Source of the DNA: an uncultured Verrucomicrobiota bacterium
Lineage (GTDB): Bacteria > Verrucomicrobiota > Verrucomicrobiia > Opitutales > Intestinicryptomonadaceae
Length of the DNA: 64,000 nucleotides
Assembly: GCA_949293415.1 (NCBI GenBank)
Contig: CASFDK010000044.1
Coordinates: 1 to 64,000 of the forward strand
Direction: 5' to 3'
Shown here: positions 47,466 to 54,959 of the stretch, piece after piece
Layout: every line of letters starts with the position of its first letter
Position numbering within the stretch: position 1 is the stretch's first letter
Program-made: the position numbers and the translations under genes
The notes under the pieces: model-generated
Databases searched by the model: none
Told to the model about the DNA's origin: nothing
What the model saw: only the letters and a program-made list of their open reading frames with translations

Positions 47466-49229
47466 ATGGAAATTTGGTTTCACCCCTCGAAAGAGCTTCA
47501 AACACTCGTAAAGAACTGCGCCGAAGCGGCGGGAATGGACGCCGACTTCGACCCGCAAATACGCCCCGCCGACCCGCGTTTCGGCGACTTTCAGGCAAAC
47601 GGCGTTCTCGCCTACGCAAAGGCACGCAAACAAAATCCCCGCGCGGCGGCGGAAAAGCTTGTGGATACCATCAGGCAGTCGCCAGACTTCGACCCCGAAT
47701 GCATCTCAATCTCGATTGCGGGTCCGGGGTTCGTCAACTTCGCCCTCACGCCCAAATTTCTCGGTGCGTGGCTTGCAAAGTTCAAGGGCGAAAGCGAACT
47801 TAAATCGGCGGCGGGAAAATTCTTCAACGGCAAGAAAATGGTCATCGACTACCCGTCGCCCAACACCGCAAAGCAAATGCACGTCGGACACCTGCGCCCG
47901 ATGGTCATCGGCGAAGCGGTCAAACGCCTGCTGAAATTCTGCGGCGCGGACATCATCACCGACAACCATATCGGCGACTGGGGAACGAATTTCGGCATCC
48001 TCATCTACGGAATCAAAACCAACAACTACAAGCTCGACGCATCGAACGAAAATTCGCTCGAAGAGCTGGAGCAAATGTACAAACGCGGCAGCGCGCTCGT
48101 GAAAGACTCGAAGGAAGCCGCCGACGCCGCCCGCGAAGAGCTTGTGAAACTCCAGAACGGAGACCCCGAAAACGTCGCCCTCTGGAACGAAATCAACAAG
48201 GTAAGCACAGCCGCGTTCGACCGTATGTACAAGCGTATGGGGCTTACGATAGACTGCACATTGGGCGAATCGTTCTACCGCGACAAAGTCGGGCGTATCT
48301 ACAAAGAACTTACCGAAACGGGTATCGCCGAAGAAAATCAGGGCGCGCTCGTCGTCTTCTTGCGCGACCACGACAGATTCAAGACACAGCCGTTTATCAT
48401 CCGCAAGAGCGACGGCGCGTCGAACTACGCATCGACCGACTTGGCAACCCTGCTCTACCGCGTGGAGCACTTCGGCGCGGAGGAAGTCGTCTACGTGACC
48501 GACGGCAGACAGCAGGACCACTTCCAACAGCTTTTCCTCACCGCAAAAAAATGGTTCGACGCAAAGGGCTATAAACTTCCCGACCTGCGGCACGTCTGGT
48601 TCGGAACGATTCTCGGCGAAGACGGCAAGGCAATCAAAACCAAGAGCGGCGAGCCAATCCGCCTGCGTATGCTGCTCGACGAATCCGTCGCACGAGCAAA
48701 GGCGATTGTAAAGGAAAAGAACCCCGACATTTCGGAGGACGAAGCCGACAAAATTGCAAACACCGTGGGCGTTGCCGCCCTGCGCTATGCCGACTTGGTA
48801 CAAAACAGAACGAGCGACTACGTGTTCTCGTGGGACAAACTTCTTGCATTTGAAGGCAATACAGCCCCCTACCTGCTCTACGCCGCCGCGCGTATGCACT
48901 CGATTTTCCGCAAGGTCGGCGTTTCCTCCGACGCGCCGTTTGAAGCCGACGCTTCGCCGCTCGAAACCGAGCGCGAAATCGCCCTTGCCCGAAAACTCGT
49001 GGCTCTGCCTGCGGTCTTCGAACAAACCCTGTCGGAATTGCGCCCGCATTACCTCTGCAACTACCTTTACGAGCTAGCGGGCACGTTCTCGACGTTCTAC
49101 AACGCCGACAAGGTTATCACCGACGACAAAGCCGTTATGGCGCGCCGCCTAATGCTCTGTTCCCGCACACTCAGAATTCTCGAAACGGGTCTGCGCCTGC
49201 TCGGAATAGAACCGCTGACAAAAATGTAA
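47466..49229 (+). CDS. argS: Arginyl-tRNA synthetase
   Basis: 587 aa. The N-terminal additional domain covers about 1-110. The HIGH box is SPNTAKQMHVGHLRP near 130-144, and there is a degenerate KMSKS (GKAIKTKSG), as usual for ArgRS. The C-terminal DALR anticodon-binding domain (about 465-587) has 'YLLYAAARMHSIFRK' and ends in LLGIEPLTKM. It charges tRNA-Arg. Confidence 0.96.
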   Translation: MEIWFHPSKELQTLVKNCAEAAGMDADFDPQIRPADPRFGDFQANGVLAYAKARKQNPRAAAEKLVDTIRQSPDFDPECISISIAGPGFVNFALTPKFLGAWLAKFKGESELKSAAGKFFNGKKMVIDYPSPNTAKQMHVGHLRPMVIGEAVKRLLKFCGADIITDNHIGDWGTNFGILIYGIKTNNYKLDASNENSLEELEQMYKRGSALVKDSKEAADAAREELVKLQNGDPENVALWNEINKVSTAAFDRMYKRMGLTIDCTLGESFYRDKVGRIYKELTETGIAEENQGALVVFLRDHDRFKTQPFIIRKSDGASNYASTDLATLLYRVEHFGAEEVVYVTDGRQQDHFQQLFLTAKKWFDAKGYKLPDLRHVWFGTILGEDGKAIKTKSGEPIRLRMLLDESVARAKAIVKEKNPDISEDEADKIANTVGVAALRYADLVQNRTSDYVFSWDKLLAFEGNTAPYLLYAAARMHSIFRKVGVSSDAPFEADASPLETEREIALARKLVALPAVFEQTLSELRPHYLCNYLYELAGTFSTFYNADKVITDDKAVMARRLMLCSRTLRILETGLRLLGIEPLTKM

Positions 49230-49252
49230 TTTTTTGTGTTGGCGACACTTTT

Positions 49253-49278
49253 GGCGCAACTTTAGTTGCGCCTTTTTT
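49253..49278 (+). terminator. Terminator after argS
   Basis: GGCGCAAC (49253-49260), loop TTTA, GTTGCGCC (49265-49272), then six T. Confidence 0.9.
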
Positions 49279-49394
49279 GTAGGAACGCATTGACATAACG
49301 AAGAAAAATGTGCAAAAATGAATGTTATGACGGCATATCGAACGGTCCGGAATTGTCCGATATAAGTTCGAAGCACCGAAGCCATTACGAAGCA

Positions 49395-49511
49395 ATGCGA
49401 ACTTACAAACAAAAAGCGGCGGCTATAGTCGCCGCGAAACATCATAAACACAAACATACAAAAACGAAAGAAACAACGGTGTTTCGAACGGTTCGGAATT
49501 GTCCGATATAA
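49395..49511 (+). CDS. Possible 38-aa basic peptide, repeat unit 1
   Basis: This open frame begins at the ATG in unit 1 and ends in the first block of unit 2. The product is very basic (MRTYKQKA, then IVAAKHHKHKHTKTK, ending FRTVRNCPI). The same peptide recurs from unit 2, with several of the base changes between units synonymous. There is no good ribosome-binding site, so translation is doubtful. Confidence 0.3.
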   Translation: MRTYKQKAAAIVAAKHHKHKHTKTKETTVFRTVRNCPI

Positions 49512-49543
49512 GTTCGAAGCACCTAAGCCATTGCCGAAAGGCA

Positions 49544-49660
49544 ATGCGAACTTATAAACAAAAAGCGGTGGCTATAGTCGCCGCGAAGCATCACAAACAC
49601 AAACATACAAAAACGAAAGAAACAACGGCATATCGAACGGTCCGGAATTGTTCGATATAA
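49544..49660 (+). CDS. Possible 38-aa basic peptide, repeat unit 2
   Basis: It has the same length and nearly the same sequence as the frame in unit 1, ending AYRTVRNCSI in unit 3. AAGG lies very close before the ATG as part of the tetraloop hairpin. A third, shortened frame (49690-49776, 28 codons) starts in unit 3 and runs into the next gene. Confidence 0.3.
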   Translation: MRTYKQKAVAIVAAKHHKHKHTKTKETTAYRTVRNCSI

Positions 49661-49759
49661 GTTCGAAGCACCGAAGCCATTACGAAGCGATGCGAACTTA
49701 TAAACAAAAAGCGGTGGCTATAGTCGCCGCGAAGCATCACAGATATAAAAAAATAAAAA

Positions 49760-50287
49760 ATGAAGATAAGTACTAAAGGCGGCGATTTCGGGAAGACAAA
49801 ACTGGTATTCTTGCGGGAAACTTCAAAAGCTTCGCCGCGCGTTTGCGCATACGGGGCAGTAGACGAATTTTCGGCAACATTGGGATTCGCACGGTCATTT
49901 GCGACGGGCGAACTGAACACGAAAATCCTGCACATACAGGAACGGCTCGTTTTGCTGATGACCGAACTTGCAACCGCAAAAGACGACTTTCCGAAACTCG
50001 CCGAAAAGAAAATCAAAACACTCGGAGAAGCCGACCTTTCGGAAATCGAATCGCAAATAGAGGAATACGAAAAAATCGGCAATATATTCAGCGGGTGGAC
50101 ACACTCGGGCGAAAACACACTGCAAGCCGCCCTCGATATGGCGCGGGCACGCTGCCGCACAGCCGAACGCGAAATCGTAAAACTTGCGGAATCGGAAGGG
50201 CTTGCGCGCAACTTCCCGCTGCAATATGTAAACAGACTTGCCGACCTGCTCTACCTGATGTCGCAAGCCGCGGCACAGACGGAATAA
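49760..50287 (+). CDS. Cob(I)alamin adenosyltransferase, PduO type
   Basis: 175 aa. STKGGDFGKT near 4-13 is the ATP-binding start of the PduO family. DEFSATLGFARS, RARCRTAEREIV and YVNRLADLLYLMSQ are the other conserved blocks. It attaches the adenosyl group to cobalamin, so at least one B12-dependent enzyme and B12 salvage are expected. It lies right after the repeat array, whose last unit reaches to within 20 bp of the start. Confidence 0.88.
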   Translation: MKISTKGGDFGKTKLVFLRETSKASPRVCAYGAVDEFSATLGFARSFATGELNTKILHIQERLVLLMTELATAKDDFPKLAEKKIKTLGEADLSEIESQIEEYEKIGNIFSGWTHSGENTLQAALDMARARCRTAEREIVKLAESEGLARNFPLQYVNRLADLLYLMSQAAAQTE

Positions 50288-52949: not shown

Positions 52950-54959
52950 ATGAAAAAATATCTCATACTTATGTCGATGGCGGCATCTGGCGTTGCGTTT
53001 GCGGCAGGCGGCTCGCGCGATAAGGACAACCCCACCCCCATCTCGAGTTGGACGGACAACCTTACGGGGCAAATCGTCTGGCGCGGCGATGGCTCAGGTG
53101 CCGACCTCACCACAATGACGGACCTCTATGTCAAAGCCGACGGCAACTACACAATCGGCAATTTCACTACATCGGGCACGGGCGGCAACCACACGAATAT
53201 GCACCTCGACCTCGCCGGCAACACGCTTACCTCGACAAGCGGCGAACCCCTCGCATTCAACGACGATTCGCATACAATCCCGACTCCCCGTTCATATGCG
53301 GCAGGCTACTATCTTGAAAACAGTTCCGAACAGGTTGCAACGGTCAACTTTAACGCGGCAAGCACAAAGTTCAACCTCGCAACCTACGACTTCGAATCGC
53401 AGTCGAGCATTCAGCAAAAGTACGGCAGGGTCGTTTCGATTGGCGAAAATGTCGTGATGAACACGAAGAATCTGACGGTCAGCGGCAAGTTTATGAAATA
53501 CGACGGCTACACCGCAGACCCAATAGCCGACTCGGCATTCATCGTAAACGGCACGCTCAACACTGCGGCGTTGAATCTAAGCGGCACTAATGCAAACGTG
53601 GCGGGCACGCTCAATGCGACAAACGATGTTAGCATAGCCAACACCGCTTTCGTAAACTCGGGCACAATCGACGCCAAAGCGGGTACGGCTCTCGGAAACA
53701 TCTATGTCAAGGAAGGTTCGAACTTCTCCAATACTGGAACAATCAAAGCCTCGAACGTGCTCGAAATCGACGGCGCAACATTCACATCCAACGGCGTTCT
53801 GAACACCGGCTGCCTCGGTATAAAGAACGGCGCGGACGTAACCATCGGCGGCACATTCAAGAACTACGCGGGCAACGCGGGCTCGATAGTACGCGCGCGC
53901 GGCACGGGCAACTCGCTCACGGGGCTGAACGGCGAACTCGACTTCAACCACATCGCAGTCAAAAACGACGCTGGAGCTGCGGACCTTACAATCAAGGGTA
54001 AGGTGCTCTCGAGACAGATCACGGTCGAAACAAACACGGCTATGACGGTCGATACCGGCGCGGTTATGGTTATCGGCGACGGTACAAAGAACTCGCAGAG
54101 CCTAATAGCCAACGGCGGCTCGATTCTCGTAAAGGGCACGCTCGTCAACAAAGTCCTCGGCGCGGCGGATATAATTATGGCGGGCGTTTCCCTCGGTAAT
54201 ATCACCGTAGACGGCGGTACGCTTGAGGAAATCGCAATGAACGGAAATTCAGGTTCGGCGGGGTTCGACATCAAAAAGGGTCAAACAATAAAACTCGTCA
54301 ACGGCGGCAAAATCGCATCCTATGCGGGGAACGATCAAAAACAGGCAATCCTCGCTCTCACGGGCGGCACGCTCGAACTCGACGCAACTTCGCGCATTCT
54401 CACAAATCAAATCGCCTTTGCAATCGATACGAACGACAAAGCGAACAACGGCGGCACACTCAAGCTCGGTTCGGCGGCAAACCTCGCGGCGGACACGCAG
54501 ATTATCATCAAGGATAACAACAGCGGGATTTCCAGACTCGAACTTGCGAAGGATTCGTACGAAATCGCAAAAATCAGACTTCTGCGCAACTCGAATCTGA
54601 CAATCGACCTTAGCAACGACGCGCAAATTACAATCGGCAGCGTCGAAAGCTACGGACTGCAGGAGGTAAACTTCGAGCTTGTCCTCGAAGACTTCCAAGC
54701 GGGCTTGGTAAAGGTCAACGGCTGGACGACCGAACTTATCAGCTCGGGCACGTTCTCGCTCTCGAACAGCACGACAGACGCGCCCAAGACAGTCACGCTC
54801 AAGGCTCTCGACGCGTTGGGCAACATCATAGAAGGTCTCTGGAGCGTGGACGAAAACGGCTACCTCTACAACTCGGGTCTCGTTCCCGAACCCGCGGAAT
54901 GGGCGGCAATCTTCGGGGCACTCGCGCTCGGATTGGCTCTCTACCGCCGCCGCAAGTAG
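52950..54959 (+). CDS. PEP-CTERM surface protein with repetitive beta-helix body
   Basis: 669 aa. A signal peptide (about 1-19, ending AFA) is followed by a Gly/Asn/Thr-rich body with many short strands such as 'GTLNAT', 'SGTIDAK' and 'NGGTLKLG'. These suggest a right-handed beta-helix like autotransporter passengers. The C-terminus has the sorting tag: VPEPAEWAAI, a hydrophobic stretch and the basic end YRRRK (residues about 645-669). PEP-CTERM proteins are processed by an exosortase and displayed at or released from the cell surface. No exosortase gene is in the window. Confidence 0.85.
   Translation: MKKYLILMSMAASGVAFAAGGSRDKDNPTPISSWTDNLTGQIVWRGDGSGADLTTMTDLYVKADGNYTIGNFTTSGTGGNHTNMHLDLAGNTLTSTSGEPLAFNDDSHTIPTPRSYAAGYYLENSSEQVATVNFNAASTKFNLATYDFESQSSIQQKYGRVVSIGENVVMNTKNLTVSGKFMKYDGYTADPIADSAFIVNGTLNTAALNLSGTNANVAGTLNATNDVSIANTAFVNSGTIDAKAGTALGNIYVKEGSNFSNTGTIKASNVLEIDGATFTSNGVLNTGCLGIKNGADVTIGGTFKNYAGNAGSIVRARGTGNSLTGLNGELDFNHIAVKNDAGAADLTIKGKVLSRQITVETNTAMTVDTGAVMVIGDGTKNSQSLIANGGSILVKGTLVNKVLGAADIIMAGVSLGNITVDGGTLEEIAMNGNSGSAGFDIKKGQTIKLVNGGKIASYAGNDQKQAILALTGGTLELDATSRILTNQIAFAIDTNDKANNGGTLKLGSAANLAADTQIIIKDNNSGISRLELAKDSYEIAKIRLLRNSNLTIDLSNDAQITIGSVESYGLQEVNFELVLEDFQAGLVKVNGWTTELISSGTFSLSNSTTDAPKTVTLKALDALGNIIEGLWSVDENGYLYNSGLVPEPAEWAAIFGALALGLALYRRRK

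Follow-up and report, generated by a model that had tools for sequence, protein, structure and literature searches.

What fills the space between argS and the gene for a PduO-type cobalamin adenosyltransferase in this genome of a gut Opitutales bacterium, and does the filling belong to these two genes? The gap between them is -1 to 22 nt in all 11 of the relatives that carry both genes; here it is 530 nt, and it is occupied by a degenerate inverted copy of a hairpin repeat, which comes first, followed by three direct units (Table 1). The initial annotation of the window, by which we mean the whole 64,000-nt stretch of DNA analysed here, had described three tandem units of 146-149 bp and read them as a plus-strand structured RNA array. 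The three units are indeed there: Tandem Repeats Finder places the region's single array at 49330-49741, with 2.8 copies of period 149, a score of 713 and 91% matches, and reading of the sequence agrees. We consider it probable, although by no means certain, that the array is built from an interspersed, lineage-specific hairpin repeat of the REP/BIME-like kind, present here in three tandem copies and a degenerate inverted one.

Table 1. Coordinates of the genes, repeat units and hairpins at the argS-pduO locus (positions in the window).
Feature	Position	Strand	Details
argS, arginyl-tRNA synthetase	47466-49229	+	Pfam PF00750, PF05746, PF03485
Whole insert, argS stop codon to pduO-type ATG	49230-49759		absent in 11/11 relatives
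Degenerate inverted copy of the A-B core, adjoining the argS stop	~49250-49294	-	nhmmer 24.1 bits, E 2e-6
B hairpin of the inverted copy, GGCGCAACTTTAGTTGCGCC then TTTTTT, intrinsic-terminator-like for argS	49253-49278	+	consensus scan only
Weak promoter-like TTGACA-18-AAAAAT	49290-49319	+	2 sites in the region vs 1.0 expected, not clearly above chance
Unit 1	49330-49475	+	146 bp
Unit 1 left stem, ATATCG...CGATAT	49335-49363	+	
Unit 1 hairpin A, TAAGTTCG...CGAACTTA enclosing CATT...AATG	49363-49405	+	
Unit 1 hairpin B, GCGGCGGC-TATA-GTCGCCGC	49416-49435	+	
Unit 2	49476-49624	+	149 bp
Unit 2 hairpin A, extended inner stem and GAAA loop	49509-49554	+	
Unit 2 hairpin B, U.G pair	49565-49584	+	
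Unit 3	49625-49759	+	3' end CATCACA-GATATAAAAAAATAAAAA, immediately 5' of the adenosyltransferase ATG
Unit 3 hairpin A, U.G pair in the inner stem	49658-49700	+	
Unit 3 hairpin B, U.G pair	49711-49730	+	
PduO-type cobalamin adenosyltransferase	49760-50287	+	Pfam PF01923, E 4.9e-38

Folding and origin of the array

The spacings from unit to unit are 146 and 149, and the difference of 3 nt is accounted for by the longer small stem of unit 2, CATTGCC-GAAA-GGCAATG, which carries the GAAA tetraloop that had been ascribed to it. The substitutions from which a strand preference had been argued can likewise be read directly from the sequence. In the GC-rich stem, hairpin B, unit 1 pairs GCGGCGGC with GTCGCCGC, and the other two units have GCGGTGGC opposite the same GTCGCCGC arm, a C to T change that converts a C-G pair into U.G on the plus strand and into C.A on the minus strand, and an A to G change in the small stem of unit 3 (CATT...AATG to CATT...GATG) again leaves a U.G pair on the plus strand. 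Two elements of the earlier description had to be amended. Both of the hairpins assigned to each unit are present, but so is a third, the left stem ATATCG...CGATAT, which is disrupted in unit 2 but complete in the other two units. Moreover, the claim that pairing is kept on the plus strand only holds for the B stem and the small stem, but unit 1 departs from it, with an A.C on that strand in the inner part of its left stem.

Compared with dinucleotide shuffles, the plus-strand folds of units 1 to 3 have z scores of -2.9, -7.1 and -3.3, and those of the minus strand are weaker, at -0.4, -2.2 and -1.9. In unit 2 (49476-49624), GGUGUUUCGAAC can pair with GUUCGAAGCACC in an alternative 12-bp hairpin, at the expense of the outer stem of hairpin A; this pairing appears in the predicted fold of unit 2 and in neither of the minimum-energy folds of the other two units.

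We infer that the repeat arrived at the argS-pduO locus by insertion and that the copy in the window was then duplicated in tandem. The terminator-like B hairpin of the inverted copy, together with its run of six T, would end the argS transcript, the adenosyltransferase gene would thereby be uncoupled from argS, and the plus-strand hairpins would come to form the 5' leader of its mRNA. Where the plus strand is the sense strand for the downstream gene, as it is here, only plus-strand pairing would be kept. The locus is a clean case, with the repeats parting genes that adjoin in every relative checked, and an effect on the operon is testable.

A dispersed and modular family of intergenic hairpins

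The units of the array are local copies of a dispersed intergenic hairpin repeat that has about 55 copies in this genome. A 121-base query taken from unit 3 matched 34 places in the 2.32-Mb genome, and a covariance model built on the two hairpins of the unit, A and B, matched 54, with 57 matches in the extracted loci; since the copies were taken piecewise from the genome, a 95%-complete draft in 52 contigs, some may be missing from the count. The proposal of a plus-strand structured RNA array is therefore upheld only in part: the unit is structured, homologues of it covary, and plus-strand pairing is kept through G.T over A.C, but what was taken for a feature of this locus is a set of local copies of a genome-wide interspersed repeat.

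Divergent versions were found in only two relatives, one of the same genus (G004) and one of another genus in the same family (G018), and the repeat is present in 3 of the 273 sampled genomes of the order, this genome included. A scan of species genomes with a 21-mer from the core matched the MAGs of Opitutales bacterium SIG75 and RGIG9302 (yak abomasum). Plasmid records contained no match to the repeat, and viral contigs contained no exact match to the 21-mer core. At gathering scores, Rfam recognised only a tRNA in the window, the best sub-threshold matches at a relaxed threshold were chance-like, and the scan yielded no cobalamin riboswitch. The family is lineage-specific and undescribed, it is supported by covariation, and it belongs to gut Opitutales. 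Outside Opitutales the 21-mer matched exactly once, in a contig of an uncultured Microbulbifer (L092, 7209-7229).

The core unit, about 85-100 nt long, consists of two hairpins, A and B, and a tail, ATCACA. Hairpin A reads TAAGTTCG...CATTG...CAATG...CGAACTTA and is separated by an A-rich spacer from hairpin B, examples of which are GGCGCGAC-TATA-GTCGCGCC and GCGGCAAC-TATA-GTTGCCGC; roughly GAAGTATCACA then follows. The B stem has 8-9 bp and a 4-nt loop, and the inner stem of A is extensible, the part between its conserved arms ranging from 7 to 23 nt and being near-symmetric throughout. Beyond this core most copies have a module C, which reads GGAACGAAGTTCC or CCCGAACGAAGTTCGGG, and at least one module of type D (D1, GCAGGCTGCAGCCTGC; D2, CGTC-AAGGGCTTCGCCTTTG; D3, GGCGCGGCTCGCGCC), with stems of about 5-8 bp in C and D. 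A CGTC tag is carried by D2 in 17 of 18 cases and a GTAG tag by D1 in 13 of 19. Hairpins A and B are untagged, and the copies in the window have these only, without the tagged C and D modules. A dozen copies with the 3' end GATATAAAAAA, unit 3 of the window among them, make up a shorter type.

Modules also appear to have been reshuffled between copies. Two copies (L031, 1163-1434; L017, 1173-1256) are chimaeric, with a D-type hairpin in place of part of A or B, which suggests recombination or template switching at the hairpins. Two others (L057, 1085-1186; L058, 1140-1241) differ by a single base in the core and carry D3 and D2, respectively, and such near-identical cores with different D modules point to a recent exchange of modules. 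The versions in SIG75 (G004) and RGIG9302 (G018) share with the present family the A-B-C-D order and an inner hairpin of the GCGAAGC type, but their B stem is replaced (GCCACGAT-TATA-GTCGTGGC; GGCGCGGGGCTCCGCGCC) and their outer A stem is missing or different. SIG75 has tandem arrays as well; in one of them (L062, 389-1114), 4-5 copies of the divergent version are set in a row with C and D modules between them.

Covariation, strand preference and neighbouring genes

The initial annotation had held that a lack of covariation among homologues would speak against a structured RNA; with a covariance model, strong covariation was found. In the 57-row alignment, 94.5% of cells are paired, 11 pairs show double changes, doubly changed cells number 102 vs 35.4 in shuffles, and the covariation score is 0.276 vs 0.136 shuffled, all of these being figures that lean towards structure because the alignment was fitted to the covariance model and the copies are related. 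When the pair partners are slid against each other, the signal is abolished.

Exceptions to Watson-Crick pairing on the plus strand fall largely on one side. Among the 38 best copies there are 38 G.T and 4 A.C exceptions (23 vs 4 when distinct haplotypes are counted), and among all 57 copies there are 53 and 14; with pair positions as the unit of counting, the excess is less marked (11 vs 3, p ~0.06). Transitions at unpaired sites lack such a bias (69/1028, or 6.7%, vs 26/301, or 8.6%), and a mutational bias as the origin of the G.T pairs was therefore rejected. The G.T excess favours selection on a single strand, whether RNA or ssDNA, and we suggest that it is probably pairing at the RNA level that is selected. 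Setting G.T against A.C, with unpaired sites as the reference, gives a simple probe of whether such palindromes are maintained as duplex DNA or, instead, as RNA (or ssDNA).

By the calls of a gene finder whose codon-usage model was trained on the window, which are not a curated annotation, no copy overlaps a gene by more than 20 nt. Both neighbours were called for 41 of the 57 copies; relative to the element, 18 of these contexts are convergent, 10 and 8 are co-directional and 5 are divergent, the convergent context being the commonest (18/57). A close facing gene is present at the right end of 22 copies, and in about 16 of the 22 the last module is 0-3 nt from its stop. At many loci, the element would follow immediately on the stop of the gene facing its right end. 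Behind hairpin B, 8 nt of the minus strand contain a mean of 5.5 T vs 1.5 on the plus strand, so that a transcript of the facing gene would run into a terminator-like hairpin and be ended by B, read on the reverse strand with its T-run. The combination of a GC-rich hairpin and a U-run is found on the minus strand of B in most copies and on the plus strand for the inverted copy, not on the plus strand of the units.

A G.T pair in hairpin B, which is A.C on the strand of the facing gene, occurs in 2 of the 34 copies that have such a gene vs 9 of 22 without one (p 0.002), a contrast among related copies (about four lineages in the second group) that is probably not significant if related copies are counted once. 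It is suggestive only of hairpin pairing being kept on the transcribed strand, with which the array in the window, lying between two plus-strand genes, is in keeping. The repeat probably acts in mRNA as hairpins and as portable terminators; termination, leader function and mobilising activity alike are what we infer. A more far-reaching version, which we put forward tentatively and regard as rather doubtful, is that of a lineage-specific portable terminator or 3'-end module that spreads without a known transposase, prefers sites behind stop codons, pairs on whichever strand the locus transcribes and rewires operons. If it were true, the cobalamin adenosyltransferase gene, uncoupled here from argS, would be a case of such rewiring.

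Relation to known repeats and other explanations

According to Di Nocera et al. (2013; PMC3733652), REPs lie between convergent and co-directional genes, near 3' ends, and their ends sometimes supply a TAG stop codon; Opitutus terrae (Verrucomicrobia) is rich in GTAG REPs, and CGTC REPs also occur without a dedicated transposase. Evidence cited in PMC12306157 indicates that a REP can stall ribosomes when it lies within 15 nt of a stop codon. The present repeat resembles REPs and BIMEs in being made of intergenic, multi-copy hairpins that are mosaic, partly tandem, and placed between convergent or co-directional genes, near their 3' ends and right behind stops. Its stems fall within 5-13 bp and close on small loops, short palindromes of this kind are present in many extragenic copies in the genome (54-57 model matches), and the CGTC of D2 and, in most cases, the GTAG of D1 are the tags of PMC3733652. 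However, the A-B core is untagged and, at about 85-100 nt, larger than a REP of 20-40 bp; its clustered copies are mainly direct and do not form head-to-head dimers; and, unlike the situation with GTAG REPs, there is no RAYT in the taxonomic family of the host genome. Because A and B are untagged and RAYT is missing from 19 genomes, we refrain from classing the core unit with the GTAG or the CGTC REPs. The repeat works like a REP family and is probably related to one in part. The minus strand of hairpin B is also similar to an intrinsic terminator, with its 8-9 bp GC-rich stem and the T-rich stretch behind it; unlike intrinsic terminators, the repeat is a homologous family with further hairpins, and there is no T-run on the plus strand, yet pairing is better kept on that strand. 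Pneumococcal BOX elements are modular, interspersed, hairpin-forming and intergenic, as the repeat is, but the host phylum differs.

The RAYT/Y1 transposase (PF01797) is absent from this genome (G000) and from all 19 genomes of its taxonomic family, with positive controls, and Y1_Tnp occurs in 8 other genera of the order. RAYT/Y1, IS110 and a reverse transcriptase were each rejected as the mobiliser of the repeat, none being present in this genome. It is unlikely that the repeat is a non-autonomous mobile element with plus-strand hairpins recognised as ssDNA, by an IS200/IS605-like system or another, and with a G.T bias that reflects folding of the transposing strand and not RNA. In its favour are the dispersed copies, the patchy distribution (3/273 genomes), the insert between two genes and the preference for one strand. 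However, Y1_Tnp is found in 0 of the 19 genomes of the family though in 8 other genera of the order, neither a target duplication nor terminal inverted repeats were recognised, and G.T in hairpin B occurs mainly where no facing gene has the minus strand downstream of it, a pattern that RNA fits better.

Nor do we give much credence to neutral spread through gene conversion, template switching and slippage, with symmetry arising from quasipalindrome correction and not from function. The mosaic modules, the chimaeric copies, the tandem duplication and the near-perfect symmetry of inner stems that differ in length are all in keeping with it. Quasipalindrome correction, however, predicts no excess of G.T over A.C without a mutational bias at unpaired sites, and a position directly behind stop codons is not predicted either.

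We also think it improbable that the array is a dedicated structured ncRNA, or a riboregulator in the leader of the adenosyltransferase gene, with units repeated in tandem for the sake of function. The strand-asymmetric pairing, the strong covariation, folds better than those of shuffles and the location immediately upstream of the ATG would all be expected of such an RNA, but the same unit is found beside some 40 other gene pairs, in either orientation, the relatives are without any leader at this position, and the searches gave no Rfam match and no cobalamin riboswitch. A repeated small coding sequence (for a peptide such as MRTYKQKAAAIVAAKHH) in which the 3-nt change preserves the frame is refuted and almost certainly wrong, for all that the units in the window differ by 3 nt and a 67-aa ORF runs through unit 1, given that the inner loop of A is 7, 9, 10, 19, 22 or 23 nt across the family and does not preserve frame, that there is no Pfam match and that the changes are paired rather than codon-like.

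Elsewhere in the window, directly downstream of a phosphofructokinase gene, 52950-54959 encodes a large repetitive surface-type protein with a C-terminal PEP-CTERM-like motif, VPEPAEWAAIFGALALGLALYRRRK.
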